Shown: positions 4,003 to 62,153 of the stretch, piece by piece
Position numbering within the stretch: the stretch's first letter is position 1
Layout: each line of letters opens with the position of its first letter
NCBI GenBank assembly: GCA_026168455.1
Contig: CM047431.1
Location: 53,318,029 to 53,382,028, forward strand
Source of the DNA: Theocolax elegans
Lineage: Eukaryota > Arthropoda > Insecta > Hymenoptera > Cerocephalidae
DNA: 64,000 nucleotides
Direction: 5' to 3'
Program-made: the position numbers and the translations under genes
Notes under the pieces: model-generated
The model's input: the letters and a program-made list of their open reading frames with translations, nothing else
Databases searched by the model: none
What the model was told of the DNA's origin: nothing

Positions 4003-4004
4003 TA

Positions 4005-6911: not shown

Positions 6912-6954
6912 TATTACATCAACAATAATTATACAATAGAAGTCAGCTTTTTAA

Positions 6955-30415: not shown

Positions 30416-33065
30416 ATGTGCAAGTTCTTCGTGATCGCCGCCCTGTGCTTTCTCGCTTTCTGCGTTTTGCCCGCCCGTAAGTGCATTTTAACTTTCTTTA
30501 ACGACATCGAGTGGATTTTGTTGTTTCTGCGAGAATAGACTGCTATAACATTGATGGGTGTCTTACAATATTAAGAACTTTGTCGGATATAGGTGAAATT
30601 AAAGTTTAATATTTTTATGGTACTTGGTAGAAAAAGAAATATTGATAAATATATAATTAAATGATCTATGATCCATATCAAGCTTATAATATTGTTTTTT
30701 TATGTTTTGATGACAGAAAATTTAAGATAAAAATTGAGTATATCAGTCGCGAAAGGTTAATAAAGTAATAACATTTAAAGATACTTGTGTAAAAGAAAAA
30801 GTGTTTTAAAACATTGTTTGACAACGTATTCTTCGCGTTTCAAATAATTCGAACGACTTTACCATCCGTCGGTAAAACAGGACGCCCGAATAATAATTTG
30901 AACGACGCTTTACCGATATGCAACGAATGATATACAGGTTCGATATACTGCTGGGTGGACGTAAACGACGACTTCAACGAGCGACAACCGTTGGTACTGC
31001 AAACGAACTCGAACGAGTTTGTATACCCGAGCAAGAGCAACTCGGACGACCTGAAACTCAAATTCTGCGAGACGATACGCGTTGCCTGTCCTCAGGATAA
31101 TCTCGTCGTGTTCTCTTCAAACTTAAATTTGTCCGAAGCCACGCTCAGATGTTACGGTCTGACGTTCTTCGACGTCGTAAGTAAAAATACGAAAATGGGA
31201 TATTTATCGTTATTTCTTTTTTTTTTGGAAATTATAATATAACCGGTAAATTGTAAATTCCAGTTGGGTACGAGTTACGCAGCACCGTTCGACCGTATCG
31301 GTTGCACCCGAGTACCGGTGTCGATAGCCGAATCGACGATGGGTACCTGCCCGAACGGTACGATCGCGCGTATCGGGTTCCAGCTACAAAGTAACGTTTT
31401 CGTACCAACGATCGATCAGATCTGTCACAACGCGACTTTAGGTCAAACTCATTGGGCCCACTCGAAGGTTATGCTCGCAGTGAGGAAACGCCAGCGTGAA
31501 CAAGGTTTGCCCGTTTACATGACTGGACCGTTCTATACGAACATGACTATGGGACCTACCGTATTCACTAGAGACAGCCAAAGAACGAGGCTTCAAGCGT
31601 TGTTGAACAGCACGGAACTCGTCGACATGTACATACCAATGACTGGTGAGTTTCATTCTAGTTTCCCTTTATCTATGCGACGTTCAAGGCCCATCTGGCA
31701 CACTCGGTTACTCACCACGCAAAAAATATAAATATTATATTTATTTTAAAAATTATGGTATTTTATTCAAAACTCGAATGCATAACTACACTAGATTATT
31801 AAAAAATAACCCATTCTACAAAGTTTCAAGTCAATACATTTCTGCACCGGAGAAGTATGACTTCCCGTAATTTATCTGCGCAGAAATTTTTTAAAGTGTT
31901 ATTTAATTACTTGTTATTTAACTATCTAGCCTTTGCATTTTCTCTAGAATATTGTGTATTTTCTATATTTAAGTAATAATTGACCTAGATTGCTCTGTCG
32001 GTAATATAATCGAATATACTGACTCCCTAAGGAAACATCGGAGTCAATTATTATTGACCCAGTGAATCGAGAGGTTAAAAGATGAAAAAAAATCTGTTTA
32101 CCATTGCCGTTCATTTGAGTATCACCTTCCACTAGATTATATTTCAAACAAAAATGTTAATGCAGTCAAGTATGACATTCAAATGAAATTTGACTGTTAG
32201 ATTTATGATTCTAGGTTTGGAGCAAAATTAAGAAACAAATTTCTTTGTAATGCCATTTATGAATGCATTGATATTTTTGTTCGAAACATAATTCAGTGAT
32301 AGGTGATACTCAAGAGAAGAGCAATGATGTTTTTGTTTTACAAAAATTACCGTATTTATATTTAGTTTAAAAGGATTTTGTCGTCTCACTTGGCATGCTC
32401 GGCCGGTAACCATTTAATAAATAATGATTTCTCATTTGTATAACGATAAACAAAAGTAGATTTAGGTCGTTAAGTAAAAAAGTTAAAAATTTTGCACGTT
32501 TTATTCAGGTGACAACTATTTGGTGGAAGGTATGTTGGTACCCAGGTCCGACATGTTTTACCGGTCGCAACAAGACAGCACTTTCTTCTACATCAACACT
32601 GTGCCGATATGGAAGAACATTCGAGACGGTAATTGGAAATTGGTCGAGGAAATTGTCCGTAAAAACGCAGGGCAACAATCGATTAATTTGGACGTATGGA
32701 CCGGTGGGATCGACGTTTTGACATTGAACGACTCAGCTGGTAACGCAACACAGATAACTCTCGCTACCGATCGCGAGGGTAACTCGACCATTCCGGTCCC
32801 ACGTTTCTTATTCAAATACGTCGTTGATCAAGTACGCAACAAAGGTCTAGTTTTTGTAACATTGAACAATCCGCACGTTAAAGCTGTCACTGCCAATGAA
32901 ATGATATGCCAAGCTCGAAGTGAATGCGCCAACCTCTATCCTCAATTCAACGTCGCGACTCAGGGATACACTTATTGTTGTGCCATCGACTCGAGTAGCT
33001 CTTTCTTTGCCATCGCTCAAAATCTCGGATTACCGACATTCCCCTCTGCTCAACCACTTTTTTAA
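30416..33065 (+). CDS. Secreted NUC-family protein lacking the catalytic His
   Basis: Four exons, 30416-30476, 30938-31176, 31264-31645 and 32509-33065, each with GT donors (GTAAGT, GTAAGT, GTGAGT) and AG acceptors, giving 412 residues. The start gives a clear signal peptide (MCKFFVIAALCFLAFCVLPA). The last exon corresponds to the endonuclease core: DNYLVEGMLVPRSDMF, FYINTVPIWKNI and GNWKLVEEI, and later a YCCAID cysteine pair shared with the paralogue (YCCSL). At the position of the general-base His the residue is Met236 (GM instead of GH); the Mg-binding Asn context (YIN) is kept. Several N-glycosylation sequons (for example NLS, NAT, NMT, NST) fit an extracellular protein. The phase-1 intron before Gly-Asp of the core is at the same place as in the gene at 9298, so the two are paralogues. 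A binding or other non-nuclease role is an inference. Confidence 0.85.
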
Positions 33066-37137: not shown

Positions 37138-37141
37138 TAAT

Positions 37142-37889
37142 TGTGACGAGTGACGATAGCGCGAGCCACTCGTCATGGTTCTCCGCCGCGAGGCCCGTAC
37201 GGCCGTCGGGTAAGATCGCGCGGGATACGGAAGGGAGGGGGAACGAGAGAGAATTAGTGTGAGATATTCTGTTGTGAGCCGCCGAGCCGGAAGGTCCTCG
37301 GAGATATTAGAGTGACGTCGCCGACGACTGCGTGGTATCACGTACGAGACGCGAGGAGATTTACTGCTACGAGTATAAGTTTAGAGTTTTTCCCTCTCGA
37401 CGAGGATAACGTACTCGGGTAATTCTCGCGTACTCTCTTCGAGCCGCGATCCTGCGTCCGGGTGATGACCCCCCCCCCCCCCCGCGATTGTGCTCAGGCC
37501 GCCCGAACAATTGTATCATTTCGCGCGTTCGCGATGTAACTATTGTGTTGTAATACGAACTAGTGAATAAATCTGAATTTCATTTTATCTTTCGATTCGT
37601 ATCATTTTGATATCCCGTATTCACCCAGGAATCCCGATCCTTAGTTTGATAAGCAGACGAGCCCGCGGTACTCGTCTGCCAATCCTAAATTCGTACTTCC
37701 GAAAGTGGGCTCACTCTGGAGCCCATATCAACGTACATGGTAGCTGTTGAGGTATCGGCGAGCCGTTGACGGAGTGCACGAGAGGCCCGATCGCGCGCGA
37801 AGGTAAGTTCGTCACGCGCGATCTCGGGGTTACCCCTACTCACGCTATCTCCGTGCATTATTCGATAAAACCCGACATGCACCGTTACA
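37142..37889 (+). repeat. 5' LTR of the gypsy element
   Basis: 748 bp, TGTGACG..GTTACA. It has a 9-bp inverted repeat (TGACGAGTG/CACTCGTCA) just inside the start, a C15 run at about 37469-37483 and AATAAA at 37566. It differs from the right LTR at about three positions by eye. Confidence 0.95.
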
Positions 37890-37900
37890 TGGCGCCCAAC
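37890..37900 (+). promoter_or_regulatory. Primer binding site, Lys-tRNA type
   Basis: TGGCGCCCAAC immediately follows the LTR and would pair with an 11-nt 3' end GTTGGGCGCCA, which fits insect tRNA-Lys. Minus-strand synthesis would begin here. Confidence 0.7.
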
Positions 37901-38225
37901 TAGTTAGCACTGGGCATACGGGATTATAGAAGAAAATTTGGTATTTTCTTTCTAACCGGGTACCTCACTAAACGAAAAATTAAATATATCGAGTAGTGAA
38001 AACGTCAAGGCCAACGTACTTCGCGAAGAGAGAATCGAGCGCGCGCGCGTTTTGTAAACAAAGCGAGTTGTTTACATCGGCGCGAGACTGGAGATTCGAT
38101 ATTCCCAGTCTCACTAATTCTGTATAGTAAGTGCGAGAGAGAGAGAAAGTAAAATTTGTTTTTACTTTCTCGCACGGATAAATACGCAATTCAAGGATTT
38201 ACGGAAGTTTATGGCAAAAGATTAG
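37901..38225 (+). other. Leader of the gypsy element with a long hairpin
   Basis: No gag frame is recognisable. At 38131-38175 a 16-bp stem (GTGCGAGA..GAAAGTAAAA against TTTTACTTTCTCGCAC, with an 8-nt GA bulge) could be a packaging or dimerisation structure. An ATG at 38211 reads only four codons before TAG, just ahead of the viral segment, and may be the remnant of the gag start. Confidence 0.5.
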
Positions 38226-39708
38226 GATTTGAATTATCTTTCATCTGAGGCCGTATTAATGGTAGTACCCGGGAGGAGTTGTCATTACATGCGGGAAGTA
38301 AGTGTTGACTTGAAGCAATCCGCTGCGGAAAAAGTAGTGTTAGATCAGGATGGTAATACTTTTATAATACAAGACGTTATTGAATATAATTATAGCCAAC
38401 CTGGTGCGTGTGGATCCTTATTATTAGTACCCGAATCGCAACGTCCTATAATTGGTATGCATTGTGCAGGATCAGGTGAAGGAAAATATGGTCTAGGTTA
38501 TTCAGTAACGTTAACTCAGGAAGCTGTAGCCACGATTGTTCAAGGAGATTTTGAACCAAATGAGGTGGAAGAATTACCATTGCATGATATTGATGAGACA
38601 ACATATTGTTTTGAACCTGAGGTACAAGTAGTTATAGAGGGTCAAGTGAGTAAGGAGGATGTTCCTTATATTCCGACTAAAAGCAAATTGGAGCGATCAC
38701 TTTTGTATGGTAAAGAGGGATTAGAGGATAATATGGAGCCGGCTATACTTCATAAAAATGAAAAGCGATATATGCATCCTGATACCCCCCTTTTTGCAGG
38801 TTGTAAAGTCCATGGAAAATTAACTGAGGATTTTACTCCCGAAGAATTGGATGAAGTTGGGGATTATTTATGGGATGGTTGGTTAGTTAAAATGAAACCT
38901 TTAATCACTCAACCGAAAATTCTGACTTTGGAGGAAGCAATAGTAGGACTCCCTAAATCTACTCATTCTAAATATTACAAAGGTATGGATCTCAAGACTA
39001 GTGCGGGTTATCCATATGTATTAGACAATAAGAAGAAATCTAAAGCTGATTATATTATACCCATATTAGATGATAATCAACAAATGATTGGTGTTGAGAA
39101 TATTGATAAGATAGTTTTAGATGAAATTAATAGGAAAGATGATCTTAGAAAGCAGGGTATTGTTCCAGGAACTATTTTCATAGACACTTTAAAGGATGAA
39201 AAACGTTCTAAAGAAAAAGTGATGAAATATGGAGGAACTCGAGTATTTTGTAATTCTAGTTTAGACTATGTAATTTCGTGTCGTAAATTTTATATGCATT
39301 TTATAGCTGCTTTTATGAAGCATCGACATTCGTTGATGCACGCAGTAGGAATCAACCCGTTAAGTTCGGAATGGACTACACTTGGAAAGGCTTTATTGTC
39401 AAAAGGAACCAAAATTGTGGGTGTTGATTACACCAACTTTGGACCAGGATACAATTCAGGTGTAGCAAAACAAGCTTATCGACTGATGTTAAGGTGGGTT
39501 AAAACTTATGTTCAGATGACTAAAGAAGAAGAACAAATTGCTTCTACTTTATTATGGGAATGTATTCAAAGTAAGCACATTATGAATAACCTAGTTTATC
39601 ATCAAGTATCCGGTTCCCCTAGTGGTGTAGTTTTTACTACAATTGTTAATACCATAGTGAATCATTTATATCTCTTGTTGGCATGGAAAAATTTGGCTTC
39701 TAATTATT
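38226..39708 (+). pseudogene. Endogenous picorna-like virus segment: 3C-like protease C-half and partial RdRp
   Basis: About 493 codons without a stop, in the same orientation as the LTR transcript. Residue numbers count from 38229. The first about 100 residues are the C-terminal half of a 3C-like chymotrypsin-fold protease: GACGS with the nucleophile Cys61, then IGMHCAG. The N-terminal half with the catalytic His is missing. From about residue 170 it is a picornavirus-order RNA-dependent RNA polymerase: TSAGYP, the LKDEKR motif, motif A VDYTNFGPG (Asp400) and motif B SGSPSG (461-466). It ends before motif C, so no GDD is encoded and no polymerase can be made. Base composition is AT-rich, unlike the GC-rich gypsy sequence on both sides. 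Iflavirus or dicistrovirus relatives are most likely. The intact frame argues for recent capture. Confidence 0.88.
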
Positions 39709-40125
39709 GTCGAGGAGCAACGCGTGCTCGAATTTGCGAGCCGCACGATGACCGACAGCGAGAAGAATTATAGCGTCACAGAGCGAGAGTGTCTCGCTCT
39801 CATCTGGGCCATTCGCAAGTTCCGCGCTTATGTCGAAGGTTATAAGTTCAAGGCTATAACCGACCACTCCAGTCTCAGGTGGTTATGCAATCTGCGTAAT
39901 CCGACGGGCCGCCTATCTCGTTGGGCCCTGGAGCTACAAGGGTACGATTACGAGGTAGAATACCGAAAAGGAGCACTCAACCACGTGCCCGACGCACTCT
40001 CTCGGATGAGCGAGGGAGACGAGTTATCGGTCAGCGCGGTGACCGAGAGTCAAGAGACTACTGATGAGTGGTACCTGGGCCAATATGACAAGGTCATGAA
40101 AAGCCCTAGTGATTTCCCCAAATGA
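39709..40125 (+). pseudogene. Gypsy pol: extreme RT end and RNase H
   Basis: The frame switches from the viral one at about 39705-39712 to the gypsy pol frame. It reads LEFASRTMTDSEKNYSVTER, then ITDHSSLRWL and YRKGALNHVPDALSR, the classic Ty3/gypsy RNase H region that degrades the RNA strand during reverse transcription. The palm and finger parts of reverse transcriptase are absent. The frame ends at TGA 40123-40125, where the downstream integrase frame would otherwise continue without a shift; the position is one where the family usually has Trp. Confidence 0.85.
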
Positions 40126-40990
40126 AAAATCATAGCGGGGAGATTGTATACATATCGTCCCGATTCAATGTTGTCCGCAACACTCGGTGACGACGAAGCA
40201 TGGAAGCTCGTCGTCCCGATCGAGAAGCGTGCGCTCGTTCTAAAACAAGGACACGACGAGCCCACGGCGGGTCACCTAGGTAGGGAAAAAACATATAAGC
40301 GTATCGCCTTGTACTATTATTGGCCACGCTTATACCGGGATGTAGCCGTCTACGTCCGATGTTGTTTGATCTGCCAACAGTGCAAGGTCGAACAACGCCT
40401 ACCTGCAGGACTAATGGGACGCCGGACCATCGAACGGCCCTGGGAAGTTGTCGCAGGGGACGTTATGGGTCCGTTTCCGAGGAGCGTCCAAGGCTTCGAA
40501 TACATTTTGATATTCGAAGATTTATTTACTCGCTGGATCGAGTGCATACATATAAGGAAGGCTAACGCGCAAACGATCTTCAAGAATTTAAAGGACCGAG
40601 TTTTCTTCCGACACGGAGTACCGTCGACGTTCTTGTCCGATAACGGGACGGAACTTAAGAATAGTCTCGTAGACAATTACCTAAAGGAAGTCGGGGTGCA
40701 GCATATGACTACTCCTCCCTACTTCCCACAGGCGAACCCGGTCGAGTGCGTGAACAGAACGCTAAAAACCATGTTAATCGCATTTATCGAGAAGGATCAT
40801 AAGCACTGGGACTCGAATCTGTACGAGATCGCGCTTGCATACAATACGTCGATACAAAGTTCGACGGGAGTAAGCCCAGCGATGTTGATCTACGGCAGGC
40901 AACCAATGCCTCCCGACTCGTTAAGGAAACGCGAAGAAAACGCAGCGCTCCTGGAGGAAAATAAAACCGCACTCGAAGATTGGAAAAAAA
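40126..40990 (+). pseudogene. Gypsy pol: integrase zinc finger and catalytic core
   Basis: Same frame as the RNase H segment, after the TGA. It has an HHCC zinc-binding module (H..GHLG..CCLICQQC), then the DDE core: AGDVMGPF, SDNGTEL and NPVECVNRTLK, with 34 residues between the second Asp and the Glu. All three acidic residues are present. The core would join element DNA to the target. Frame is lost at the A7 run 40984-40990, where one extra base explains the shift to the next segment. Confidence 0.88.
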
Positions 40991-41704
40991 CGCTTAGACC
41001 GGTTACCACTGTTACACGACGCAGCAGCCGTCCGAGCAGAATCGGCCCAGGAGAAGCAAGCGAATCACTACGACAAGGGTCGCCGCTTCGTCGAATACGA
41101 GACAGGCGACCTAGTCTGGAGACGTAACGAAGTACTCTCTTCAGCAGTTCATAACGTGTCGGCTAAACTCACACCGAAATACAGGGGACCGTACTTGGTC
41201 TCGAGAGCCATTGGAACGAATACTTATTCGTTAATTGACGGGGACGGGAACTCGGATTCTCCCGTCCACGCAGAACAACTGAAGCCGTACCAAAAAAGTA
41301 TAAACCCGGAAGAAGACGACTTCGAGAAGACTCTTCCACCGTTGGATGCGTCACGCGCAGGGGCGGGTAATTGTCCGCCCTCAAAAAGCGAAAATATTGT
41401 AAATGCGAGCGAGCGTGTAACCGAAATAAGCGAGAGAGACACCTTAGCGCCGGCGAATAAATGTCAGACCGCGCTGACCGTGCCCCCCAAGCGTAAACCC
41501 GGACGACCGCGAAAAACAGCGTTCGTAGTTCGCCGCCCGATCACATCGAAAATAGTGCGTAGAGATAGTAAGGAGATACGCGGAACCGCGTCCACGGGGA
41601 TAGTACGCCGCCCGGGCCGTCCACCATGCTCCAAAAAATCTAAACCGTCGACAATAACGAAAAGCTGCTCACCGCGTAAGACTCGAAGTCGTACGGAGGC
41701 TTGA
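40991..41704 (+). pseudogene. Gypsy pol: integrase C-terminal domain with AT-hook-like tail
   Basis: Continues in another frame after the A7 run. ANHYDKGRRF, GDLVWRR, LTPKYRGPYLVS and DSPVHAEQLKPY are the conserved C-terminal (GPY-type) integrase module. The last about 100 residues are Lys/Arg/Pro-rich with two AT-hook-like cores (KRKPGRPRK and RRPGRPPCSK), a DNA-minor-groove-binding motif. Stop at 41702. No signal peptide or membrane segment, so it is not an envelope gene. Confidence 0.8.
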
Positions 41705-41778
41705 TACGTCCCTCATTCCCGACCTCGCTCCGAGAATGTAGTGGCAGAAGCCGGATATCTACCCGGTACCCACCGTCT

Positions 41779-41788
41779 GGGAGGGGGG
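41779..41788 (+). promoter_or_regulatory. Polypurine tract
   Basis: An all-purine, G-rich run directly before the right LTR, the expected plus-strand primer. Confidence 0.8.
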
Positions 41789-42536
41789 TGTGACGAGTGA
41801 CGATAGCGCGAGCCACTCGTCATGGTTCTCCGTCGCGAGGCCCGTACGGCCGTCGGGTAAGATCGCGCGGGATACGGAAGGGAGGGGGAACGAGAGAGAA
41901 TTAGTGTGAGATATTCTGGTGTGAGCCGCCGAGCCGGAAGGTCCTCGGAGATATTAGAGTGACGTCGCCGACGACTGCGTGGTATCACGTACGAGACGCG
42001 AGGAGATTTACTGCTACGAGTATAAGTTTAGAGTTTTTCCCTCTCGACGAGGATAACGTACTCGGGTAATTCTCGCGTACTCTCTTCGAGCCGCGATCCT
42101 GCGTCCGGGTGATGACCCCCCCCCCCCCCCGCGATTGTGCTCAGGCCGCCCGAACAATTGTATCATTTCGCGCGTTCGCGATGTAACTATTGTGTTGTAA
42201 TACGAACTAGTGAATAAATCTGAATTTCATTTTATCTTTCGATTCGTATCATTTTGATATCCCGTATTCACCCAGGAATCCCGATCCTTAGTTTGATAAG
42301 CAGACGAGCCCGCGGTACTCGTCTGCCAATCCTAAATTCGTACTTCCGAAAGTGGGCTCACTCTGGAGCCCATATCAACGTACATGGTAGCTGTTGAGGT
42401 ATCGGCGAGCCGTTGACGGAGTGCACGAGAGGCCCGATCGCGCGCGAAGGTAAGTTCGTCACGCGCGATCTCGGGGTTACCCCTACTCACGCTATCTCCG
42501 TGCATTATTCGATAAAACCCGTCATGCACCGTTACA
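41789..42536 (+). repeat. 3' LTR of the gypsy element
   Basis: 748 bp, same ends, C15 run and AATAAA (42213) as the 5' LTR. It is followed by the second copy of TAAT. Confidence 0.95.
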
Positions 42537-42540
42537 TAAT

Positions 42541-43314
42541 AAACAACACTTAAAAATATTTGTAATATAAATAAATTACCAACAAATGACTATATCGAAA
42601 TTGCCGAATTTCAGAGATAACTATAATAAACGTTATTTATTATTTTTTTACAATATTAAATCATTGTCGAAATTTTGAAGTTCAAATTATTTAGTAGAGA
42701 ATGATTCTCGTAAAGTAAAAAAAATTTTAACTAACATATAGTATACCCAGGTGGCAATTAATACAGAAAGAGTGCAGAACTATTAGCTTTTTTTTGTGAT
42801 ATTCTATGTCAATAAGGTAGAGAGGGTGAAAGTTAAGTATAGCACCCATTTAAATATTCTTGTACCAATTTGAGTTTTCATTGTTACGTCGAAGAACTGT
42901 GTTGTTATGTAAGATTTTTAATCTTACATATGTATGTATTAGTGTACAACGTCGTGCTTGAATTATCAGATGTAATGATTCGAGGTAATGTCGACATATT
43001 GCCGTCACCTGCACGTGAAACATCAAATAAACATTCATCGTAAGCGTCACTTTTTCAACGAGCAAGTGACATAATATATAACAAGGATTCATTTAATTTA
43101 CTTAATTACAGATAGATGTACGCTGATTTGGATTATGGATTTATATTGTTTACAATAAGGCAGATAATTCATATATTTCTTTTTCCTTTTTCATTCACAT
43201 TACATAACTTATAGTTGATAATTTGATTTAATATTTATTACGTATAGATTACGAAAAAATCACAAGCAAATTGCTCAGTGTACAGCAGGAACAATTCTCG
43301 TTCATTTTAATTAG

Positions 43315-43365
<51 letters not shown>

Positions 43366-44749
43366 CGCATTGATAGTCTGTCGTATACATATTGAAAAGT
43401 AATTACGATATACGAGATACAGAGTAACAAGAAAATTTTTATTATTAAAAGTTTAACTGTACTAATCGACAAATTAATTTTTTTTCATTTTGTTTAACGT
43501 CGAAAAGTAAGAAAATGAGTTTTCAATTTGGTTAGACAGGGTTCGAAGCATAAGAGTAAGCTAAGTCGTCTAATTTTATTAGACGAATCCAACCTTTTCA
43601 AGCTTGGTTCGCGTATATATGTACACACACACACGCTGATTAAAATTACAGGATACATCTCGAACAACTTCGGTGGTATTGTGCACCGAACGCTTGTGGC
43701 TAAACCTCGCTGATTCTTTCCTACATAACTGTGCATACATGCATACGTGTTAGACGATTTCCATCCTGGTTTCTTTAATTACTCTACGCAAATTTAATTT
43801 TAAAAGCAATACGGATAGTTTACATAAGATCAAACCTATATTTGCCTGTTTTATTATTAATTCTTTGTAATAATTCAACGATCAACTTTACCAACGATAA
43901 TTATTATTCATTACGGTGTAGACACTTTCGGTGTAAATTTCTCTTTTTGTTCACATTGAATTTCAAAATAATTTCGCAAAGGTATTATACAGAAAGTAAT
44001 TGTACAGCTACATCGCACACAGTACATACGCGTTCTCACGTTTCATTCATTTTCAGAACCATTTGATTTTAGTTGTTTCTATCGCTATTCACGTCGATCG
44101 TGAAATCGGAAAATAATTTACAAGGTGTTATCTAATGTAGGATAATTTGAAAACAAAAAAAGAAAAAAAACTATTCTAAGAGACTATTGTTGATTCTCAA
44201 GTAGTAGAATCTGCGAGTACCCCTGCGTCGGTTCAAATTGAACATAATCTTAACATACTCGACATTGTAAATGTTCTCTTATTGACTTTTCTCGCTATAA
44301 CTAAGCGTATTTATTGTTTTCTTTAACTTCTTTAAGAGCCGTATATATACGGTATATGTGTGTCTGTATCTAGTCACGTGAAGACATTAAATGTCGATTG
44401 CAAATTCTTCAAATTTGTTAGAGTGAAAAATATGACTTATAGTTTATCCGCAAAAAGTAAGTGACTACATTTTACGGAGTAAGTTTAACTCAAATATACT
44501 CATTTTTCGCTTAAAATTGTATTGTTTCCTTATTATTATAAGAAGAAAGTACTCCCTCTAGTTGCTTCCTTCAATTTTAATTTTGATCACTAGTAGTATA
44601 TTCATAGAGAAAAGTAAAAGTGACCTTTAAATTTATATTACATCCTCTTCATTTACTCTGTTCATTCGAATTTTTATTTATTTCTCTATCATCTATTAAA
44701 TATAGTTATTGTCAAACTCAATAACAAATTTTAACGAAACAAAGTGATG
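42541..44749. other. Intergenic DNA with AT microsatellite
   Basis: Contains (AT)n at 43317-43361 and a short (CA)n at about 43621-43633. Open frames on either strand are short and without family resemblance. Confidence 0.55.
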
Positions 44750-45672: not shown

Positions 45673-47033
45673 TTGACGATGACTACTGTTAGTGATCTTG
45701 TGATTAGTGTGAGTTTTGAAGTCCTACAGTATAGCGACTATTTACGTTATGAACAATATACCGGAATTACAACAGATAGTAATCCATCGGCTACCGCCTA
45801 CTTTACTAACACACTGAAGTTGAATGGCAGCACAGTTGATGATTTAAAAGCATTTTTTCGTGATGTGTACGCTCCACTTGGTGAAATGCTCGCTCGGATA
45901 AATGGGCATGGTATCGATGCGCCAGTAGCTCGTTTAGCACTTGGTTTTACCAAGTACATAGCGTGCTGCCCTAATGCAGCATTTAGTTATTCAGTCCGGA
46001 TGGGAAAGTATACCAATGACCCAATGTACACTCCTCTAGCCAAGTATTAGGCGATGATAACCGGGCAAGGGCCCCGACCACGATGCATTTCAGCATGTTG
46101 CGCTACATTTTCGGATATCGCAATGCCCGCACCAGCGGATAATCATAGGTCAATCATCATCGATGGGGATGGTGTACTACTGATACAAGGTGGAGCGGCT
46201 GGGCAGATCGATGTGTCCCCCGCCCTGGGTAATGCCCGGATGTACGTGACGGGTGTTTCACGTGCAACGGTGCATGGCGTTAATCACGTGGATGCAAACC
46301 TAACTGCAATGACATTAACGTATACTGATGGCCCCGGTGCAATAACGAATGGTGGTATTATAGACTTTACACGCAACGTTATAACGGATGGTAAAAATAC
46401 AGCTAAATTACAGTTTAGTAAAATCGTACCGGATTGTAACGAAGCAGTGGCATCGATAAACACAACCGCGCCTATTGAAAAAACAATACAAAAGACCTAC
46501 GTTGGAAATCCCCAAATTCAACGGTAGCATTGGACAGTGGCTTCAATTTTCGTCACATTTTCAAAAAATATATGAAGATATAACTATCAGTAAAGAAGAT
46601 AAGATACAATATTTGAAGCAAGCTATGGAAAAAGGATCGCAGGCGGAGTGTCGTACGGGGTTACCCTACGAGCGCGGCAAATTACGATAAGGCATACAGT
46701 AGCCTGAAGAATCGATTTGGTCGAGAAGATCTACTTGTTGAATTTTATACACGAGAGCTGCTTTCACTTGTTTTACAGAACGCTACGAGTAAAGGTAAAC
46801 AAACAATTGTATCAGAGGTTTACGACAAAGTATCAGCACATATCCGTGCGCTCGACGCTTGGAGTGACAACAAAGAATTGTGCAACTATGCTCTATCCGT
46901 TAGTGGAATCTTCCCTTCCCGCAGAAATTTTAAGAGCATGGCAACGTTCGAGTTTCTCCAATGACGCAGGAGTAGAGGGCGCGAGAAATACAGATCGATT
47001 GACACGTCTACTTCAATTCTTAGAATCCAATTC
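45673..47033 (+). pseudogene. Gag copy 1: unassigned domain plus DUF1759-type region
   Basis: The roughly 280-residue domain begins MTTVSDLVISVSFEVLQYSD. It is interrupted by TAG at 46048-46050 (Tyr codon in other copies), by one extra base near 46484 and by a 2-bp deletion near 46650. The DUF1759-type gag part follows (LEIPKFNGSIGQWLQFSSHF). The copy ends at TTAGAATCCAATT, where it joins the 131-bp satellite. Confidence 0.8.
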
Positions 47034-47514
47034 TTGAAGTCCTACAGTATAGCGACTATTTACGTTATGAACAATATACCGGGATTACATCAGAATAATA
47101 TACAGAAGAATATAAAAAGCTTTGACGATGACTACTGTTAGTCATCTTGTAATTAGTGTGAGTTTTGAAGTCCTACAGTATAGCGACTATTTACGTTATG
47201 AACAATATACCGGAATTACAACAGAATAATATACAGAAGAATATAAAAAGCTTTGACGATGACTACTGTTAGTGATCTTGTAATTAGTGTGAGTTTTGAA
47301 GTCCTACAGTATAGTGACTATTTACGTTATGAACAATATACCGGAATTACAACAGAATAATATACAGAAGAATATAAAAAGCTTTGACGATGACTACTGT
47401 TAGTGATCTTGTAATTAGTGTGAGTTTTGAAGTCCTACAGTATAGTGACTATTTACGTTATGAACAATATACCGAAATTACAACAGAATAATATACAGAG
47501 GAATATAAAAAGCT
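47034..47514 (+). repeat. 131-bp satellite array 1, about 3.7 units
   Basis: Direct repeats of a 131-bp unit: TTGACGATGACTACTGTTAG through AATATACCGGAATTACAACA, then a TAATATACAGAAGAATATAA spacer. The unit equals the first 35 codons of the unassigned gag domain plus 23 bp of upstream gag sequence. No unique spacers. Confidence 0.95.
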
Positions 47515-48618
47515 TTGACGATGACTACTGTTAGTGATCTTGTAATTAGTGTGAGTTTTGAAGTCATACAGTATAGCGACTATTTACGTTATGAACAATA
47601 TACCGGAATTACAACAGATAGTCATCCATCGGATACCGCCTACTTTACTAACACACTGAAGTTGAATGGCAGCACAGTTGATGATTTAAAAGCATTTTTT
47701 CGTGATGTGTACGCTCCTCTTGGTGAATTGCTCGCTTGGATAAATGGGCATGTTATCGATGCGCCAGTAGCTCGTTTAGCACTTGGTTTTACCAAGTACA
47801 TAGCGTGCTGCCCTAATGCAGCATTTAGTTATTCAGTCCGGATGGGAAAATATACCAATGACCCAATGTACACTCCGCTAGCCAAGTATTATGCGATGAT
47901 AACCGGGCACGGGCCCCGACCACGATGCATTCCAGCATGTTGCGCTACATTTTCGGATATCGCAATGCCCGCACCAGCGGATAATCATAGGTCAATCATC
48001 ATCGATGGGGATGGTGTACTACTGATACAAGGTGGAGCGGCTGGGCAGTTCGATGTGTCCCCCGCCCTGGGTAATGCCCGGATGTACGTGACGGGTGTTT
48101 CACGTGCAACGGTGCATGGCGATAATCACGTGGATGCAAACCTAACTGCAATGACATTAACGTATACTGATGGCCCCGGTGCAATAACGAATGGTGGTAT
48201 TATAGACTTTACACGCAACGTTATAACGGATGGTAAAAATACAGCTAAATTACAGTTTAGTAGAATCGTACCGGATTGTAACGAAGCAGTGGCATCGATA
48301 AACACAACCGCGCCTATTGAAAAACCATTCAAACGACCTACGTTGGAAATTCCCCAAATTCAACGGTAGCATTGGACAGTGGCTTCAATTTTCGTCACAT
48401 TTTCAAAAGATACATGAAGATATAACTATCAGTAAAGAAGATAAGTTACAATATTTGAAGCAAGCTATGGAAAAAGGATCGCAGGCGGAGAGTGTCGTAC
48501 GGGGTTACCCTACGAACGCGGCAAATTACGATAAGGCATTCTCCAAAGACGCAGGAGTAGAGGGCGCGAGAAATACAGATCGATTGACACGTCTACTTCA
48601 ATTCTTAGAATCCAATTC
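47515..48618 (+). pseudogene. Gag copy 2: unassigned domain, one frameshift, internal deletion
   Basis: Open for 284 codons through the domain, then one extra C near 48353 shifts the frame into the DUF1759-type part. As in copies 3 and 5, about 320 bp of gag is missing between NYDKAF and DAGVEGARNTDR. Confidence 0.8.
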
Positions 48619-49489
48619 TTGAAGTCCTACAGTATAGCGACTATTTACGTTATGAACAATATACCGGAATTACATCAGAATATATACAGAAGAATATAAA
48701 AAGCTTTGACGATGACTACTGTTAGTGATCTTGTAATTAGTGTGAGCTTTGAAGTCCTACAGTATAGCGACTATTTACTTTATGAACAATATACCGGGAT
48801 TACAACAGAATAATATACAGAAGAATATAAAAAGCTTTGACGATGACTACTGTTAGTGATCTTGTAATTAGTGTGAGTTTTGAAGTCCTACAGTATAGTG
48901 ACTATTTACGTTATGAACAATATACCGGGATTACAACAGAATAATATACAGAAGAATAAAAAGCTTTGACGATGACTACTGTTAGTGATCTTGTAATTAG
49001 TGTGAGTTTTGAAGTCCTACAGTATAGTGACTATTTACGTTATGAACAATATACCGGAATTACAACAGAATAATATACAGAAGAATATAAAAAGCTTTGA
49101 CGATGACTACTGTTAGTGATCTTGTAATTAGTGTGAGTTTTGAAGTCCTACAGTATAGCGACTATTTACGTTATGAACAATATACCGGAATTACAACAGA
49201 ATAATATACAGAAGAATATAAAAAGCTTTGACGATGACTACTGTTAGTGATCTTGTAATTAGTGTGAGCTTTGAAGTCCTACAGTATAGCGACTATTTAC
49301 GTTATGAACAATATACCGGAATTACAACAGAATAATATACAGAAGAATATAAAAAGCTTTGACGATGACTACTGTTAGTGATCTTGTAATTAGTGTGAGT
49401 TTTGAAGTCCTACAGTATAGCGACTATTTACGTTATGAACAATATACCGGAATTACAACAGAATAATATACAGAAGAATATAAAAAGCT
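48619..49489 (+). repeat. 131-bp satellite array 2, about 6.6 units
   Basis: Same unit as array 1, in the same orientation, with scattered single-base variants and one 2-bp deletion near 48957. Confidence 0.95.
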
Positions 49490-50595
49490 TTGACGATGAC
49501 TACTGTTAGTGATCTTGTAATTAGTGTGAGTTTTGAAGTCCTACAGTATAGCGACTATTTACGTTATGAACAATATACCGGAATTACAACAGATAGTCAT
49601 CCATCGGATACCGCCTACTTTACTAACACACTGAAGTTGAATGGCAGCACAGTTGATGATTTAAAAGCATTTTTTCGTGATGTGTACGCTCCTCTTGGTG
49701 AATTGCTCGCTTGGATAAATGGGCATGTTATCGATGCGCCAGTAGCTCGTTTAGCACTTGGTTTTACCAAGTACATAGCGTGCTGCCCTAATGCAGCATT
49801 TAGTTATTCAGTCCGGATGGGAAAATATACCAATGACCCAATGTACACTCCGCTAGCCAAGTATTATGTGATGATAACCGGGCACGGGCCCCGACCACGA
49901 TGCATTCCAGCATGTTGCGCTACATTTTCGGATATCGCAATGCCCGCACCAGCGGATAATCATAGGTCAATCATCATCGATGGGGATGGTGTACTACTGA
50001 TACAAGGTGGAGCGGCTGGGCAGTTCGATGTGTCCCCCGCCCTGGGTAATGCCCGGATGTACGTGACGGGTGTTTCACGTGCAACGGTGCATGGCGATAA
50101 TCACGTGGATGCAAACCTAACTGCAATGACATTAACGTATACTGATGGCCCCGGTGCAATAACGAATGGTGGTATTATAGACTTTACACGCAACGTTATA
50201 ACGGATGGTAAAAATACAGCTAAATTACAGTTTAGTAGAATCGTACCGGATTGTAACGAAGCAGTGGCATCGATAAACACAACCGCGCCTATTGAAAAAC
50301 CATTCAAACGACCTACGTTGGAAATTCCCAAATTCAACGGTAGCATTGGACAGTGGCTTCAATTTTCGTCACATTTTCAAAAGATACATGAAGATATAAC
50401 TATCAGTAAAGAAGATAAGTTACAATATTTGAAGCAAGCTATGGAAAAAGGATCGCAGGCGGAGAGTGTCGTACGGGGTTACCCTACGAACGCGGCAAAT
50501 TACGATAAGGCATTCTCCAAAGACGCAGGAGTAGAGGGCGCGAGAAATACAGATCGATTGACACGTCTACTTCAATTCTTAGAATCCAATTCTTG
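49490..50595 (+). CDS. Gag copy 3: intact 368-residue ORF with unassigned domain
   Basis: Continuous frame (TTG context, with an in-frame ATG two codons later) covering the unassigned domain (about 1-285), then the start of the Pao DUF1759-type region (IPKFNGSIGQWLQFSSHFQK) and, after the internal deletion, DAGVEGARNTDRLTRLLQF. In the domain the first half looks helical (LKAFFRDVYAPLGELLAWI; ARLALGFTKYIACCPNAAF) and the second half strand-rich (SIIIDGDGVLLIQGG; MTLTYTDGPGAITNG). I do not recognise a family; a captured viral capsid or nucleoprotein is only a hypothesis. Nearly identical to copy 5. It may be an open but unexpressed repeat unit. Confidence 0.55.
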
Positions 50596-53560
50596 AAGTC
50601 CTACAGTATAGCGACTATTTACGTTATGAACAATATACCGGAATTACATCAGAATAATATACAGAAGAATATAAAAAGCTTTGACGATGACTACTGTTAG
50701 TGATCTTGTAATTAGTGTGAGCTTTGAAGTCCTACAGTATAGCGACTATTTACGTTATGAACAATATACCGGAATTACATCAGAATAATATACAGAAGAA
50801 TATAAAAAGCTTTGACGATGACTACTGTTAGTGATCTTGTAATTAGTGTGAGTTTTGAAGTCCTACAGTATAGCGACTATTTACGTTATGAACAATATAC
50901 CGGAATTACAACAGAATAATATACAGAAGAATATAAAAAGCTTTGACGATGACTACTGTTAGTGATCTTGCAATTAGTGTGAGTTTTGAAATCCTACAGT
51001 ATAGCGACTATTTACGTTATGAACAATATACCGGAATTACATCAGAATAATATACAGAAGAATATAAAAAGCTTTGACGATGACTACTGTTAGTCATCTT
51101 GTAATTAGTGTGAGTTTCAAGTCCTACAGTATAGCGACTATTTACGTTATGAACAATATACCGGAATTACATCAGAATAATATACAGAAGAATATAAAAA
51201 GCTTTGACGATGACTACTGTTAGTGATCATGTAATTAGTGTGAGTTTTGAAGTCCTACAGTATAGTGACTATTTACGTTATGAACAATATACCGGGAATA
51301 CAACAGAATAATATACAGAAGAATATAAAAAGCTTTGACGATGACTACTGTTAGTGATCTTGTAATTAGTGTGAGTTTTGAAGTCCTACAGTATAGTGAC
51401 TATTTACGTTATGAACAATATACCGGAATTACAACAGAATAATATACAGAAGAATATAAAAAGCTTTGACGATGACTACTGTTAGTGATCTTGTAATTAG
51501 TGTGAGTTTTGAAGTCCTACAGTATAGCGACTATTTACGTTATGAACAATATACCGGAATTACAACAGAATAATATACAGAAGAATATAAAAAGCTTTGA
51601 CGATGACTACTGTTAGTGATCTTGTAATTAGTGTGAGCTTTGAAGTCCTACAGTATAGTGACTATTTACGTTATGTACAATATACCGGAATTACATCAGA
51701 ATAATATACAGAAGAATATAAAAAGCTTTGACGATGACTACTGTTAGTCATCTTGTAATTAGTGTGAGTTTTGAAGTCCTACAGGATAGCGACTATTTAC
51801 GTTATGAACAATATACCGGAATTACAACAGAATAATATACAGAAGAATATAAAAAGCTTTGACGATGACTACTGTTAGTGATCTTGTAATTAGTGTGAGC
51901 TTTGAAGTCCTACAGTATAGCGACTATTTACGTTATGAACAATATACCGGAATTACAATAGAATAATATATAGAAGAATATAAAAAGCTTTGACGATGAC
52001 TACTGTTAGTGATCTTGTAATTAGTGTGAGTTTTGAAGTCCTACAGTATAGTGACTATTTACGTTATGAACAATATACCGGGATTACAACAGAATAATAT
52101 ACAGAAGAATATAAAAAGCTTTGACGATGACTACTGTTAGTGATCTTGTAATTAGTGTGAGCTTTGAAGTCCTACAGTATAGCGACTATTTACGTTATGA
52201 ACAATATACCGGAATTACAACAGAATAATATACAGGAGAATATAAAAAGCTTTGACGATGACTACTGTTAGTGATCTTGTAATTAGTGTGAGTTTTGAAG
52301 TCCTACAGTATAGCGACTATTTACGTTATGAACAATATACCGGGATTACAACAGAATAATATACAGAAGAATATAAAAAGCTTGACGATGACTACTGTTA
52401 GTGATCTTGTAATTAGTGTGAGTTTTGAAGTCCTACAGTATAGTGACTATTTACGTTATGAACAATATACCGGGATTACAACAGAATAATATACAGAAGA
52501 ATATAAAAAGCTTTGACGATGACTACTGTTAGTGATCTTGTAATTAGTGTGAGTTTTGAAGTCCTACAGTATAGTGACTATTTACGTTATGAACAATATA
52601 CCGGAATTACAACAGAATAATATACAGAAGAATATAAAAAGCTTTGACGATGACTACTGTTAGTGATCTTGTAATTAGTGTGAGCTTTGAAGTCCTACAG
52701 TATAGCGACTATTTACGTTATGAACAATATACCGGAATTACAACAGAATAATATACAGGAGAATATAAAAAGCTTTGACGATGACTACTGTTAGTGATCT
52801 TGTAATTAGTGTGAGTTTTGAAGTCCTACAGTATAGCGACTATTTACGTTATGAACAATATACCGGGATTACAACAGAATAATATACAGAAGAATATAAA
52901 AAGCTTTGACGATGACTACTGTTAGTGATCTTGTAATTAGTGTGAGTTTTGAAGTCCTACAGTATAGTGACTATTTACGTTATGAACAATATACCGGGAT
53001 TACAACAGAATAATATACAGAAGAATATAAAAAGCTTTGGCGATGACTACTGTTAGTGATCTTGTAATTAGTGTGAGTTTTGAAGTCCTACAGTATAGTG
53101 ACTATTTACGTTATGAACAATATACCGGAATTACAACAGAATAATATACAGAAGAATATAAAAAGCTTTGACGATGACTACTGTTAGTGATCTTGTAATT
53201 AGTGTGAGTTTTGAAGTCCTACAGTATAGCGACTATTTACGTTATGAACAATATACCGGAATTACAACAGAATAATATACAGAAGAATATAAAAAGCTTT
53301 GACGATGACTACTGTTAGTGATCTTGTAATTAGTGTGAGCTTTGAAGTCCTACAGTATAGCGACTATTTACGTTATGAACAATATACCGGAATTACAACA
53401 GAATAATATACAGAAGAATATAAAAAGCTTTGACGATGACTACTGTTAGTGATCTTGTAATTAGTGTGAGTTTTGAAGTCCTACAGTATAGCGACTATTT
53501 ACGTTATGAACAATATACCGGAATTACAACAGAATAATATACAGAAGAATATAAAAAGCT
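50596..53560 (+). repeat. 131-bp satellite array 3, about 22.6 units
   Basis: Long uninterrupted array of the 131-bp unit. Private variants (GATCATG at 51225, GAGTTTCAAGTCC near 51111, a 1-bp deletion near 52380) recur in the same order in array 5, showing a segmental duplication. Confidence 0.95.
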
Positions 53561-54921
53561 TTGACGATGACTACTGTTAGTGATCTTGTAATTAGTGTGA
53601 GTTTTGAAGTCCTACAGGATAGCGACTATTTACGTTATGAACAATATACCGGAATTACAACAGATAGTAATCCATCGGCTACCGCCTACTTTACTAACAC
53701 ACTGAAGTTGAATGGCAGCACAGTTGATGATTTAAAAGCATTTTTTCGTGATGTGTACGCTTCTCTTGGTGAATTGCTCGCTTGGATAAATGGACATGTT
53801 ATCGATGCGCCAGTAGCTCGTTTAGCACTTGGTTTTACCAAGTACATAGCGTGCTGCCCTAATGCAGCATTTAGTTATTCAGTCCGGATGGGAAAATATA
53901 CCAATGACCCAATGTACACTCCGCTAGCCAAGTATTATGCGATGATAACCGGGCAAGGGCCCCGACCACGATGCATTCCAGCATGTTGCGCTACATTTTC
54001 GGATATCGCAATGCCCGCACCAGCGGATAATCATAGGTCAATCATCATCGATGGGGATGGTGTACTACTGATACAAGGTGGAGCGGCTGGGCAGTTCGAT
54101 GTGTCCCCCGCCCTGGGTAATGCCCGGATGTACGTGACGGGTGTTTCACGTGCAACGGTGCATGGCGTTAATCACGTGGATGCAAACCTAACTGCAATGA
54201 CATTAACGTATACTGATGGCCCCGGTGCAATAACGAATAGTGGTATTATAGACTTTACACGCAACGTTATAACGGATGGTAAAAATACAGCTAAATTACA
54301 GTTTAGTAAAATCGTACCGGATTGTAACGAAGCAGTGGCATCGATAAACACAACCGCGCCTATTGAAAAATCATACAAAAGACCTACGTTGGAAATCCCC
54401 AAATTCAACGGTAGCATTGGACAGTGGCTTCAATTTTCGTCATATTTTCAAAAAATATATGAAGATATAACTATCAGTAAAGAAGATAAGTTACAATATT
54501 TGAAGCAAGCTATGGAAAAAGGATCGCAGGCGGAGAGTGTCGTACGGGGTTACCCTACGAGCGCGGCAAATTACGATAAGGCATACAGTAGCCTGAAGAA
54601 TCGATTTGGTCGAGAAGATCTACTTGTTGAATTTTATACACGAGAGCTGCTTTCACTTGTTTTACAGAACGCTACGAGTAAAGGTAAACAAACAATTGTA
54701 TCAGAGGTTTACGACAAAGTATCAGCACATATCCGTGCGCTCGACGCTTGGAGTGACAACAAAGAATTGTGCAACTATGCTCTATCCGTTAGTGGAATCT
54801 TCCCTTCCCGCAGAAATTTTAAGAGCATGGCAACGTTCGAGTTTCTCCAATGACGCAGGAGTAGAGGGCGCGAGAAATACAGATCGATTGACACGTCTAC
54901 TTCAATTCTTAGAATCCAATT
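53561..54921 (+). pseudogene. Gag copy 4: longest open gag ORF (430 codons) with unassigned domain
   Basis: Open to 54853 through the whole unassigned domain and much of the DUF1759-type region, including YDKAYSSLKNRFGRED and VSEVYDKVSAHIRALDAW, which the shortened copies lack. The frame is lost near 54742 relative to copy 7 (CGACGC for CGAGACGC), so the end of the ORF (ELCNYALSVSGIF..) is out of frame. It then joins the satellite at the same point as copies 1, 2, 3 and 5. Confidence 0.7.
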
Positions 54922-55402
54922 CTTGAAGTCCTACAGTATAGCGACTATTTACGTTATGAACAATATACCGGGATTACATCAGAATAATATACAGAAGAAT
55001 ATAAAAAGCTTTGACGATGACTACTGTTAGTCATCTTGTAATTAGTGTGAGTTTTGAAGTCCTACAGTATAGCGACTATTTACGTTATGAACAATATACC
55101 GGAATTACAACAGAATAATATACAGAAGAATATAAAAGCTTTGACGATGACTACTGTTAGTGATCTTGTAATTAGTGTGAGTTTTGAAGTCCTACAGTAT
55201 AGTGACTATTTACGTTATGAACAATATACCGGAATTACAACAGAATAATATACAGAAGAATATAAAAAGCTTTGACGATGACTACTGTTAGTGATCTTGT
55301 AATTAGTGTGAGTTTTGAAGTCCTACAGTATAGTGACTATTTACGTTATGAACAATATACCGAAATTACAACAGAATAATATACAGAGGAATATAAAAAG
55401 CT
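54922..55402 (+). repeat. 131-bp satellite array 4, about 3.7 units
   Basis: Same length and variants as array 1 (TACCGAAATTACAACAG and ACAGAGGAATA in the last unit), with one base fewer near 55137. A duplicate of array 1. Confidence 0.95.
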
Positions 55403-56508
55403 TTGACGATGACTACTGTTAGTGATCTTGTAATTAGTGTGAGTTTTGAAGTCATACAGTATAGCGACTATTTACGTTATGAACAATATACCGGAATTAC
55501 AACAGATAGTCATCCATCGGATACCGCCTACTTTACTAACACACTGAAGTTGAATGGCAGCACAGTTGATGATTTAAAAGCATTTTTTCGTGATGTGTAC
55601 GCTCCTCTTGGTGAATTGCTCGCTTGGATAAATGGGCATGTTATCGATGCGCCAGTAGCTCGTTTAGCACTTGGTTTTACCAAGTACATAGCGTGCTGCC
55701 CTAATGCAGCATTTAGTTATTCAGTCCGGATGGGAAAATATACCAATGACCCAATGTACACTCCGCTAGCCAAGTATTATGCGATGATAACCGGGCACGG
55801 GCCCCGACCACGATGCATTCCAGCATGTTGCGCTACATTTTCGGATATCGCAATGCCCGCACCAGCGGATAATCATAGGTCAATCATCATCGATGGGGAT
55901 GGTGTACTACTGATACAAGGTGGAGCGGCTGGGCAGTTCGATGTGTCCCCCGCCCTGGGTAATGCCCGGATGTACGTGACGGGTGTTTCACGTGCAACGG
56001 TGCATGGCGATAATCACGTGGATGCAAACCTAACTGCAATGACATTAACGTATACTGATGGCCCCGGTGCAATAACGAATGGTGGTATTATAGACTTTAC
56101 ACGCAACGTTATAACGGATGGTAAAAATACAGCTAAATTACAGTTTAGTAGAATCGTACCGGATTGTAACGAAGCAGTGGCATCGATAAACACAACCGCG
56201 CCTATTGAAAAACCATTCAAACGACCTACGTTGGAAATTCCCAAATTCAACGGTAGCATTGGACAGTGGCTTCAATTTTCGTCACATTTTCAAAAGATAC
56301 ATGAAGATATAACTATCAGTAAAGAAGATAAGTTACAATATTTGAAGCAAGCTATGGAAAAAGGATCGCAGGCGGAGAGTGTCGTACGGGGTTACCCTAC
56401 GAACGCGGCAAATTACGATAAGGCATTCTCCAAAGACGCAGGAGTAGAGGGCGCGAGAAATACAGATCGATTGACACGTCTACTTCAATTCTTAGAATCC
56501 AATTCTTG
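55403..56508 (+). CDS. Gag copy 5: intact 368-residue ORF with unassigned domain
   Basis: Same architecture as copy 3, differing at a few residues (for example Ile for Leu at VIQYSD). Its 5' flank matches copy 2 and its 3' flank matches copy 3, so it lies at the boundary of two duplicated blocks. Confidence 0.55.
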
Positions 56509-61534: not shown

Positions 61535-61547
61535 CATCTTTTCTATA

Positions 61548-61776: not shown

Positions 61777-61845
61777 GTGGCCCCAGATCCTGAATTATTT
61801 AAATGATTTTTAACATATGGCGAGCGTGACAGGACATTTGGGTTA

Positions 61846-62133: not shown

Positions 62134-62153
62134 CACGAAGAATATAAAAAGCT

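Follow-up and report, generated by a model that had tools for sequence, protein, structure and literature searches.

Several natural cases are in print in which sequence from an RNA virus is joined to an LTR retrotransposon, and the sections of those reports considered here describe them as follows. In Bursaphelenchus xylophilus, eBxnv-1 is a nodavirus-like RdRp within a Bel/Pao LTR element, for which the authors speculate on copy choice by reverse transcriptase (PMC5177903). In Aag2 cells, an endogenous viral element (EVE) corresponding to CFAV NS2A is flanked by a Ty3/gypsy LTR and gag, and hybrid reads between SINV and an LTR element were also reported (PMC6797480). Two further examples come from mosquitoes: AeBunya1, which lies inside a full-length Pao-Bel element (PMC5497376), and Anakin, a set of Pao elements that carry the glycoprotein of a chuvirus (PMC7642597). 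LCMV-IAP is cited as an experimental capture in a mammalian system (PMC5177903).

The insertion described here occupies positions 37142-42536 of the window, that is, of the whole 64,000-nucleotide stretch of Theocolax elegans DNA that was analysed, and it is confirmed as a real chimera of a gypsy element and an RNA-virus segment. As in eBxnv-1, the RdRp segment of a plus-strand RNA virus lies between two LTRs, in a single copy with gag missing, the last being judged here from frame position. The two differ in that LTR conservation in eBxnv-1 spans 132 nt, its pol is degenerate or distant, and no further full copies are described in the sections considered (PMC5177903); the present element has LTRs of 748 bp and a target duplication, its parental family is present in many copies, and both joins are placed within a few bases. 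The chimera shares with the CFAV insertion an insect host, a Ty3/gypsy element, a plus-strand RNA virus and a proposal of copy choice; unlike that flavivirus piece, which comes from a mosquito cell line and lies inside a piRNA cluster (PMC6797480), it is a Picornavirales segment that takes the place of element sequence from the leader into RNase H, on a chromosome-scale contig of a hymenopteran. AeBunya1 and Anakin are similar in having viral sequence inside the boundaries of an LTR element (PMC5497376, PMC7642597), although the Anakin elements are multi-copy (PMC7642597) and this chimera was found only once. The first-pass annotation had regarded the locus as a rare direct record of capture; the capture between LTRs stands, while its rarity is tempered by these natural precedents, as far as the sections considered describe them (PMC5177903, PMC6797480, PMC5497376, PMC7642597). 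The chimera is a clean further case beside the published natural captures of RNA viruses by LTR elements. The viral sources of AeBunya1 and Anakin are negative-strand viruses, and the LCMV-IAP recombination in mouse cells that Geuking reportedly described in 2009, in which retroelement and RNA-virus templates are said to have been joined, is a laboratory mammalian system, unlike this natural insect chimera.

The features of the insertion are given below, where L039 denotes a full-length relative in the same genome.

37138..37141, + strand: target-site duplication TAAT, left copy, a perfect match to the right copy
37142..37889, + strand: 5' LTR, 748 bp, with TG...CA ends
37890..37900, + strand: PBS-like TGGCGCCCAAC, found by sight
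37890..38188, + strand: first 299 bp of the gypsy leader, about 97-98% identical to the copies listed
38131..38175, + strand: leader hairpin, predicted on the matching stretch of L039, that stops about 13 nt short of the left join
38188/38189, + strand: left join, gypsy leader to virus, placed from other gypsy copies
38189..39715, + strand: captured viral segment of about 1.53 kb from Picornavirales, covering the C-terminal part of a 3C protease and RdRp to just before motif C
39713..39718, + strand: right join, virus to gypsy RNase H, with the switch somewhere within six bases
39719..40125, + strand: gypsy RNase H, C-terminal part, its frame closed by an in-frame TGA at 40123-40125
40144..41127, + strand: gypsy integrase (H2C2 and rve), in which one extra base near 40984, relative to L039, shifts the frame
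41156..41704, + strand: gypsy pol, C-terminal part, in a different frame
41779..41788, + strand: PPT-like GGGAGGGGGG, found by sight
41789..42536, + strand: 3' LTR, 748 bp, with TG...CA ends
42537..42540, + strand: target-site duplication TAAT, right copy

The two LTRs differ at 3 of 748 aligned bases and are reciprocally closest (99.6%, with other LTRs at 95% or less among the matches listed, 40 of 417 candidates), which assigns both to one insertion. The earlier claim of an LTR pair with a 4-bp target duplication is thereby confirmed, TAAT lying on both sides. As expected of a Ty3/gypsy element, paired TG...CA LTRs and a short target duplication are accompanied by a PBS-like motif after the 5' LTR and a PPT-like motif before the 3' LTR. 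The window contains no N bases and gave no Rfam match. The 3' flank (42541-43400) has only short matches elsewhere in the genome, of at most 71 bp, and a search of the same genome with this flank found no empty or untouched site.

The viral part matches Pfam RdRP_1 (E 4.6e-34) and, over just profile positions 122-174 of 174, Peptidase_C3 (E 7.3e-5). Its PDB matches include picornavirus 3D polymerases (among the matches listed, best 60 of 81), and it is 50% identical to P0005 over 510 aa. By Pfam, PDB and P0005 alike, a 3C-type protease is followed by an RdRp, as in Picornavirales; the RdRp is incomplete, the segment ending before motif C (GDD), which is present as YGDD in P0001, P0005 and P0006. 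The only classified relative found was PNG bee virus 10, of the unclassified Iflaviridae, at 36% pairwise identity, and a scan of IMG/VR for viral relatives returned three stretches that fit a pattern, none of which was confirmed. Virus and element run in the same sense, as the annotation had stated. Its order, from leader through 3C protease and polymerase to gypsy RNase H and integrase, also held, but its length of about 1.48 kb gave way to about 1.53 kb, and only the C-terminal part of the protease is present. The sole stop in the viral frame of the window is an in-frame TAG at 38223-38225. A selected fusion protein is not indicated, since the viral and RNase H reading frames are offset by one base.

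Both viral ends lie inside viral genes and adjoin gypsy sequence. At the left join, 38 of 39 non-self leader matches end at 38188 and the other ends two bases earlier (among the matches listed, 40 of 129 candidates), and beyond it all 29 non-self leader loci that were fetched continue as gypsy. Viral protein homology starts at 38190 and spans the in-frame TAG. One tblastn alignment (P0006) extended weakly to 38145, but since it thereby enters leader common to other copies, it is taken as a chance extension. At the right, viral-type sequence reaches 39712 and colinear gypsy sequence resumes from 39719; none of the 44 non-self RNase H-integrase places starts before 39702 (among the matches listed, 40 of 1512 candidates). 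Viral boundaries had initially been drawn at 38226 and 39708, and neither was upheld: the other leader copies move the left one to 38188/38189, and the right one falls within 39713-39718. The leader hairpin has a fold z of -4.2 on an 87-nt piece. Placement of the left join in a hairpin loop was rejected, as it is present in the 87-nt fold and absent from all three longer folds, and the upstream hairpin alone was retained. A motif count across the 29 leader loci was not used, unrelated places having been matched in 11 of them.

Searches with the leader and with RNase H-integrase recovered the parental gypsy family, which the annotation had proposed seeking, as many copies in the same genome. 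L039, the full-length relative, carries a pair of LTRs, a frame in the gag position and a pol frame in which Pfam places RT (RVT_1, 298-457), RNase H (548-650) and integrase (740-910), in the order of Ty3/gypsy elements. The chimera keeps the integrase and part of RNase H (RT_RNaseH E 1.5e-25, Integrase_H2C2 E 2.7e-21, rve E 2.5e-12). Compared with L039, about 4,733 bp of parental sequence are absent between the joins, namely the remainder of the leader, the frame in the gag position, RT and a portion of RNase H. Of the gag, protease and RT that were said to have been swapped for virus, the loss of RT is shown by Pfam on L039, whereas that of gag and protease is read from frame position only, because neither gave a Pfam match in L039. 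Without RT and the gag-position frame, the chimera does not encode its own transposition, and its pol remnant is interrupted by a stop and a frameshift. Its similarity to other copies is uneven, at up to 95% in the LTR, 98% in the leader and 95-96% in RNase H-integrase (among the matches listed). This unevenness counts against the template-switching explanation given below, and with the LTRs of L039 only about 81% identical, no direct donor copy was found.

Searches of the same genome found no second copy of the chimera, and the viral segment in no other gypsy copy (leader, 40 of 129 candidates; RNase H-integrase, 40 of 1512; viral segment, all three). An older viral fragment at C2 (L042:4856-5199) begins 95 bp beyond the end of an LTR from a different family, a PBS-like motif lying in between, and the LTR end is backed by other copies; judged from this arrangement, the fragment may represent another chimera of independent origin that was subsequently disrupted. 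Its flanking 4-mers are TATT and TAAT, and no second LTR was found for it in L042, L043, L044, L051, L052 or the window. The 131 bp spanning the LTR end and the viral start are matched nowhere else in the genome, a result more in keeping with a solitary LTR next to an old viral fragment than with a second chimera. Because this leader test came out against it, the proposal that LTR-element capture is a recurrent entry route of this virus group into the genome, considered unlikely at the outset, is now judged most unlikely. Of the further LTR-viral chimeras that the annotation had proposed seeking, the L042 candidate thus gained no support. The locus with the closest LTR, on C3 (L053), was set aside by eye, since it consists of two LTR copies, alike in their upstream flank, around frames that presumably belong to a Penelope-like element. 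Separately, the window carries BEL-type ORFs with an orphan N-terminal domain, the predicted fold of which was uninformative (mean pLDDT 31.6).

The chimera is a viral segment in sense orientation between the LTRs of a single integration, and its best explanation, and a probable one, is double template switching during reverse transcription, followed by one integration. The switch to viral RNA and back that had been proposed is therefore retained as the most economical reading, in which the switching itself, its enzyme, the order of the steps and live-virus RNA as the source are inferred. Gypsy-family RNA and Picornavirales genomic RNA would have been together at the site of reverse transcription. 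Minus-strand synthesis would have started on gypsy RNA, whose 3' end, with the LTR, integrase and part of RNase H, was copied before the reverse transcriptase jumped to viral RNA within the RdRp gene. After copying about 1.5 kb toward the viral 5' end, it would have returned to the gypsy template within the leader, about 300 nt beyond the 5' LTR. The completed cDNA, with two normal LTRs, would have integrated with a 4-bp duplication, and the enzymes would have been supplied in trans, because the chimera lacks RT and the gag-position frame.

A nested insertion with its own duplication is rejected; gypsy sequence has been replaced, not interrupted, the 4,733 bp or so of parent being gone between the joins. 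One DNA copy by itself is no proof of switching by reverse transcriptase, and a repair patch at the DNA level could yield the same product. A normal gypsy element would have integrated, a later double-strand break would have removed about 4.7 kb, and a viral cDNA fragment would have been used in the repair. Although the final structure would be identical, and episomal viral DNA is known from insect cells according to the section considered (PMC6797480), such a patch requires that two additional events struck the same locus in the brief time since insertion that LTR differences of 3/748 imply. Furthermore, the matching sense would be just a one-in-two outcome, and a search with the 3' flank turned up no untouched allele. 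A patch in situ is accordingly considered improbable.

Less probable again is that the viral part derives not from a virus but from transcription of a viral copy already resident in the genome. The genome does hold older related viral pieces, on C434 and at two places on C2, and at the DNA level the viral segment matches three places in the genome, namely itself and two others at 75% and 69% (all three candidates). Over 139 codons shared with the older fragment L043, however, differences from the window virus fall 21/14/73 by codon position, and 62 of the codon changes are synonymous against 26 nonsynonymous ones (dN 0.12, dS not computable). These mainly synonymous differences indicate that the window virus and L043 parted as coding sequences. 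A resident older fragment thus appears an unlikely source of the segment, a comparison that covers the 139 codons of L043 and leaves out the L042 piece. The window viral frame, with its single stop, also speaks against an endogenous source, although an EVE since lost could have served.

RNA viruses recombine by copy choice, and on that general ground the viral polymerase might itself have made the chimeric RNA, ahead of reverse transcription. This route, for which no sign in the locus speaks, does not dispense with the two switches on gypsy RNA, requires later packaging of that RNA as well, and is highly improbable. Finally, the many gypsy copies make local misjoins of viral reads to a gypsy copy conceivable, but an assembly artefact is hardly credible for an element within a 66-Mb contig, in a window without N, with a 3' flank unique save for short matches and an LTR pair private to the locus among the matches listed.

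Double template switching with a single integration is therefore the preferred reading of this locus. Arguments about how RNA viruses that lack reverse transcriptase enter animal genomes are often based on viral pieces located near retrotransposons, and a template slip by the copying enzyme of a retroelement is one way in which RNA viruses become fixed in animal DNA. Here, a single locus combines a many-copy parent, a left switch placed to the base and a right switch placed within six bases, a target duplication and an age mark from the LTRs, and together these make the copy-choice model testable. The chimera adds Picornavirales, in the form of an iflavirus-like segment, and Hymenoptera to the published natural cases considered here.

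The chimera is a gypsy-family element whose interior runs from the gypsy leader through a viral segment into gypsy RNase H and integrase. Both the LTR pair and the 4-bp target duplication claimed in the first-pass annotation are present:

37142-42536, + strand: chimeric element, with two 748-bp LTRs, TG...CA ends and TAAT on each side
directly after the 5' LTR: PBS-like TGGCGCCCAAC
directly before the 3' LTR: PPT-like purine run

The LTRs differ at 3 of 748 aligned positions (99.6% identity), and no other LTR listed in a search of the animal's own genome (658 Mb, 1,277 contigs, as for all such searches here) exceeds 95% (40 of 417 candidates scored). Judged by its sequence, the chimera is one insertion, and a young one. 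Insect mutation rates lie near 3e-9 per site and generation, at which the three changes suggest an age somewhat below 1 million generations; so small a count leaves a wide margin of error. In the own-genome search the 3' flank (42541-43400) matched elsewhere over 71 bp at most, and so revealed neither an allele nor an empty site. The G+C content, computed with the first-pass borders, falls from 0.53 (LTR) to 0.41 (leader) and 0.36 (viral segment), and is 0.52 in the gypsy part downstream of the virus. The gypsy frames match the RNase H, integrase zinc-binding and rve domains of Pfam. Compared with that of L039, a full-length gypsy copy, the pol remnant is shifted in frame by one base near 40984, and a stop interrupts it at 40123-40125, so that the chimera depended on trans-supplied enzymes in any case.

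Other frames share the window. At least seven ORFs at 46054-63184 contain all or part of a common domain of ~280 amino acids, and are interleaved with 131-bp repeat arrays. In the ORF at 53561-54850 this domain has no Pfam match and shares the frame with a BEL/Pao-type gag domain (DUF1759). The 23 database relatives of this ORF each cover at most 46% of it; among the seven with an organism name, six are, as we assign them to orders, Hymenoptera and one is a beetle, which makes a hymenopteran host probable. Capture of a gene is one possible origin of the orphan domain. Two Endonuclease_NS (DNA/RNA non-specific endonuclease) frames (10590-11189, E 3e-21; 32520-33062, E 1e-22) probably belong, as exons, to two related host genes. 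Of the neighboring frames, the one at 9501 gave a weak match (E 0.033) and the one at 31264 none.

The viral segment lies in the same orientation as the element, as had been claimed, and its identification as picorna-like 3C-protease/polymerase is borne out by Pfam matches to RdRP_1 (E 4.6e-34) and to the C-terminal part of Peptidase_C3 (E 7.3e-5). Picornavirus 3D polymerases are among the best 60 of 81 PDB matches. The best-scoring relative is the viral protein P0005 (50% over 510 aa), which was found with a second such protein, P0001, as query; named relatives are PNG bee virus 10 (36% over 511 aa), which is listed under unclassified Iflaviridae, and the unclassified Black Hill virus (52% over 187 aa), plus one tsetse-labelled entry. 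From this kinship the segment is called Picornavirales, iflavirus-like. Its RdRp ends upstream of the YGDD present in relatives and its 3C is represented by the C-terminal part only, and hence neither viral enzyme is complete; since the viral and RNase H frames differ by one base, a fusion protein is not indicated.

The parental gypsy, for which a search of the same genome had been proposed, is represented there by a many-copy family. For the leader, with 40 of 129 candidates scored, 39 non-self matches are 97-98% identical; for the region from RNase H to integrase, with 40 of 1,512 scored, 44 non-self places are 93-96% identical, some of these places being fragments of a single copy. For comparison, eight copies were retrieved, including L039 (local coordinates):

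294-1032 and 8136-8874: LTRs, TAGT on both sides
2290-4383: frame in gag position, no Pfam family matched
4344-8048: pol frame with RT, RNase H and integrase in gypsy order (Pfam)

Pfam reported no protease domain in L039. The claim that gag, protease and RT were all swapped for virus is thus upheld for RT by Pfam, but for gag and protease only by frame position, neither having matched Pfam in L039. Because the LTRs of L039 are ~81% identical to those of the chimera, L039 is, on sequence grounds, a family member and not the direct donor. Another locus, L053 (C3:34716400-34723600), appears to carry a duplicated segment that includes a gypsy LTR; between the copies lie RT-like and GIY-YIG-like frames, presumably Penelope-like.

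At the left join, 38 of the 39 non-self leader matches end at 38188 and one ends two bases earlier. Past this point all 29 fetched non-self leader loci continue into one and the same gypsy sequence, with minor variation, and the window alone passes into virus. Viral homology follows immediately: P0001 (residue 2), P0005 (462) and a third viral protein, P0006 (355), align from 38190, crossing one TAG at 38223-38225. When the target was lengthened, the P0006 alignment reached weakly back to 38145, which is read as chance because that stretch is leader common to other copies. The leader is predicted to form a hairpin shortly before the join; placement of the join in its loop was dropped, appearing in none of three longer folds.

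At the right join, the gypsy sequence is continuous in five of the eight fetched copies (L034, L036, L037, L039, L041); L035 has different upstream sequence, and L038 and L040 have no match there. An older viral relative in the genome (L002/L043) matches the window to 39712 and gypsy is colinear from 39719, which confines the join to 39713-39718. In L039 coordinates the two joins correspond to 1331 and about 6065, the latter within RNase H, and therefore ~4,733 bp of the parent was replaced by ~1.53 kb of virus. The viral segment does lie between leader and RNase H-integrase as first annotated, but the borders given then (38226 and 39708) move to 38188/38189 and 39713-39718, and, with parental sequence replaced and not interrupted, a nested insertion in an older gypsy, which had been named as a refutation, is rejected.

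An own-genome search (6 of 6 candidates scored) also located older related viral pieces:

C434, 37692-38192 and 39131-39445: viral pieces
C2, 79008933-79009250 and 79010287-79010691: viral pieces
C2, 78991387-78991701: adjoining part of RdRp

The C434 and C2 ~79.01 Mb places are near-copies (97% over 3,208 bp, 98% over 1,005 bp, 92% over 990 bp); this pair, with the third place and its adjoining RdRp part, makes one old, broken EVE conceivable, and the pieces may be just that. At L043 (C434) and L051 (C2 about 79.01 Mb) an old RdRp fragment is broken by inverted and direct repeats, and downstream of the fragment on C434 a stretch in reverse orientation shows ~72% similarity to the gypsy LTR. 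Over 139 codons, the segment and L043 differ at codon positions 1, 2 and 3 by 21, 14 and 73 changes; of the codon changes, 62 are synonymous and 26 nonsynonymous, and dN is 0.12 (dS not computable, program output -1), a pattern indicating that they parted as coding sequences. They would most simply have separated as live viruses, and the old EVE is an unlikely source of the segment.

Two template switches during minus-strand synthesis offer the economical account of the chimera, and probably the correct one. Synthesis would have passed from gypsy RNA to viral RNA within RdRp, and then from viral RNA back to gypsy RNA in the leader, after which the LTRs would have been completed normally and the product integrated. 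This account fits because of the sense orientation, the viral ends inside genes, the clean duplication and the private LTR pair. Origin as a DNA repair patch would need more steps, and is improbable; an EVE transcript as viral source, also needing more steps, is more doubtful still, and copy choice by the viral polymerase, likewise longer in steps, is hardly credible.

A possible second LTR-virus chimera was tested and went unsupported. At L042:4446-5199 (C2, ~78.99 Mb), a 344-bp viral fragment begins 95 bp past the end of an LTR from a different family, with a PBS-like motif in between. Elsewhere in the genome nothing matched the stretch that spans the LTR end and the putative leader, although absence of a match is not proof of rarity, and a search of the vicinity showed no second LTR; both lower the odds of a second chimera.

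Natural cases of RNA-virus sequence in LTR elements are reported: eBxnv-1 (PMC5177903), the CFAV/Ty3-gypsy locus and SINV-LTR hybrid molecules (PMC6797480), AeBunya1 within a Pao-Bel element (PMC5497376) and Anakin elements (PMC7642597); template switching among LTR elements themselves was proposed in Triticeae (PMC1950507). Among titles and abstract openings of open-licence papers, none described an iflavirus-like segment inside a gypsy element, nor did the passages covered of an ant EVE survey (PMC6540820). Of the "rare direct record" first claimed, the rarity is tempered by these precedents. Given such precedents in print, the chimera is of a kind already known, and its anatomy is unusually complete.
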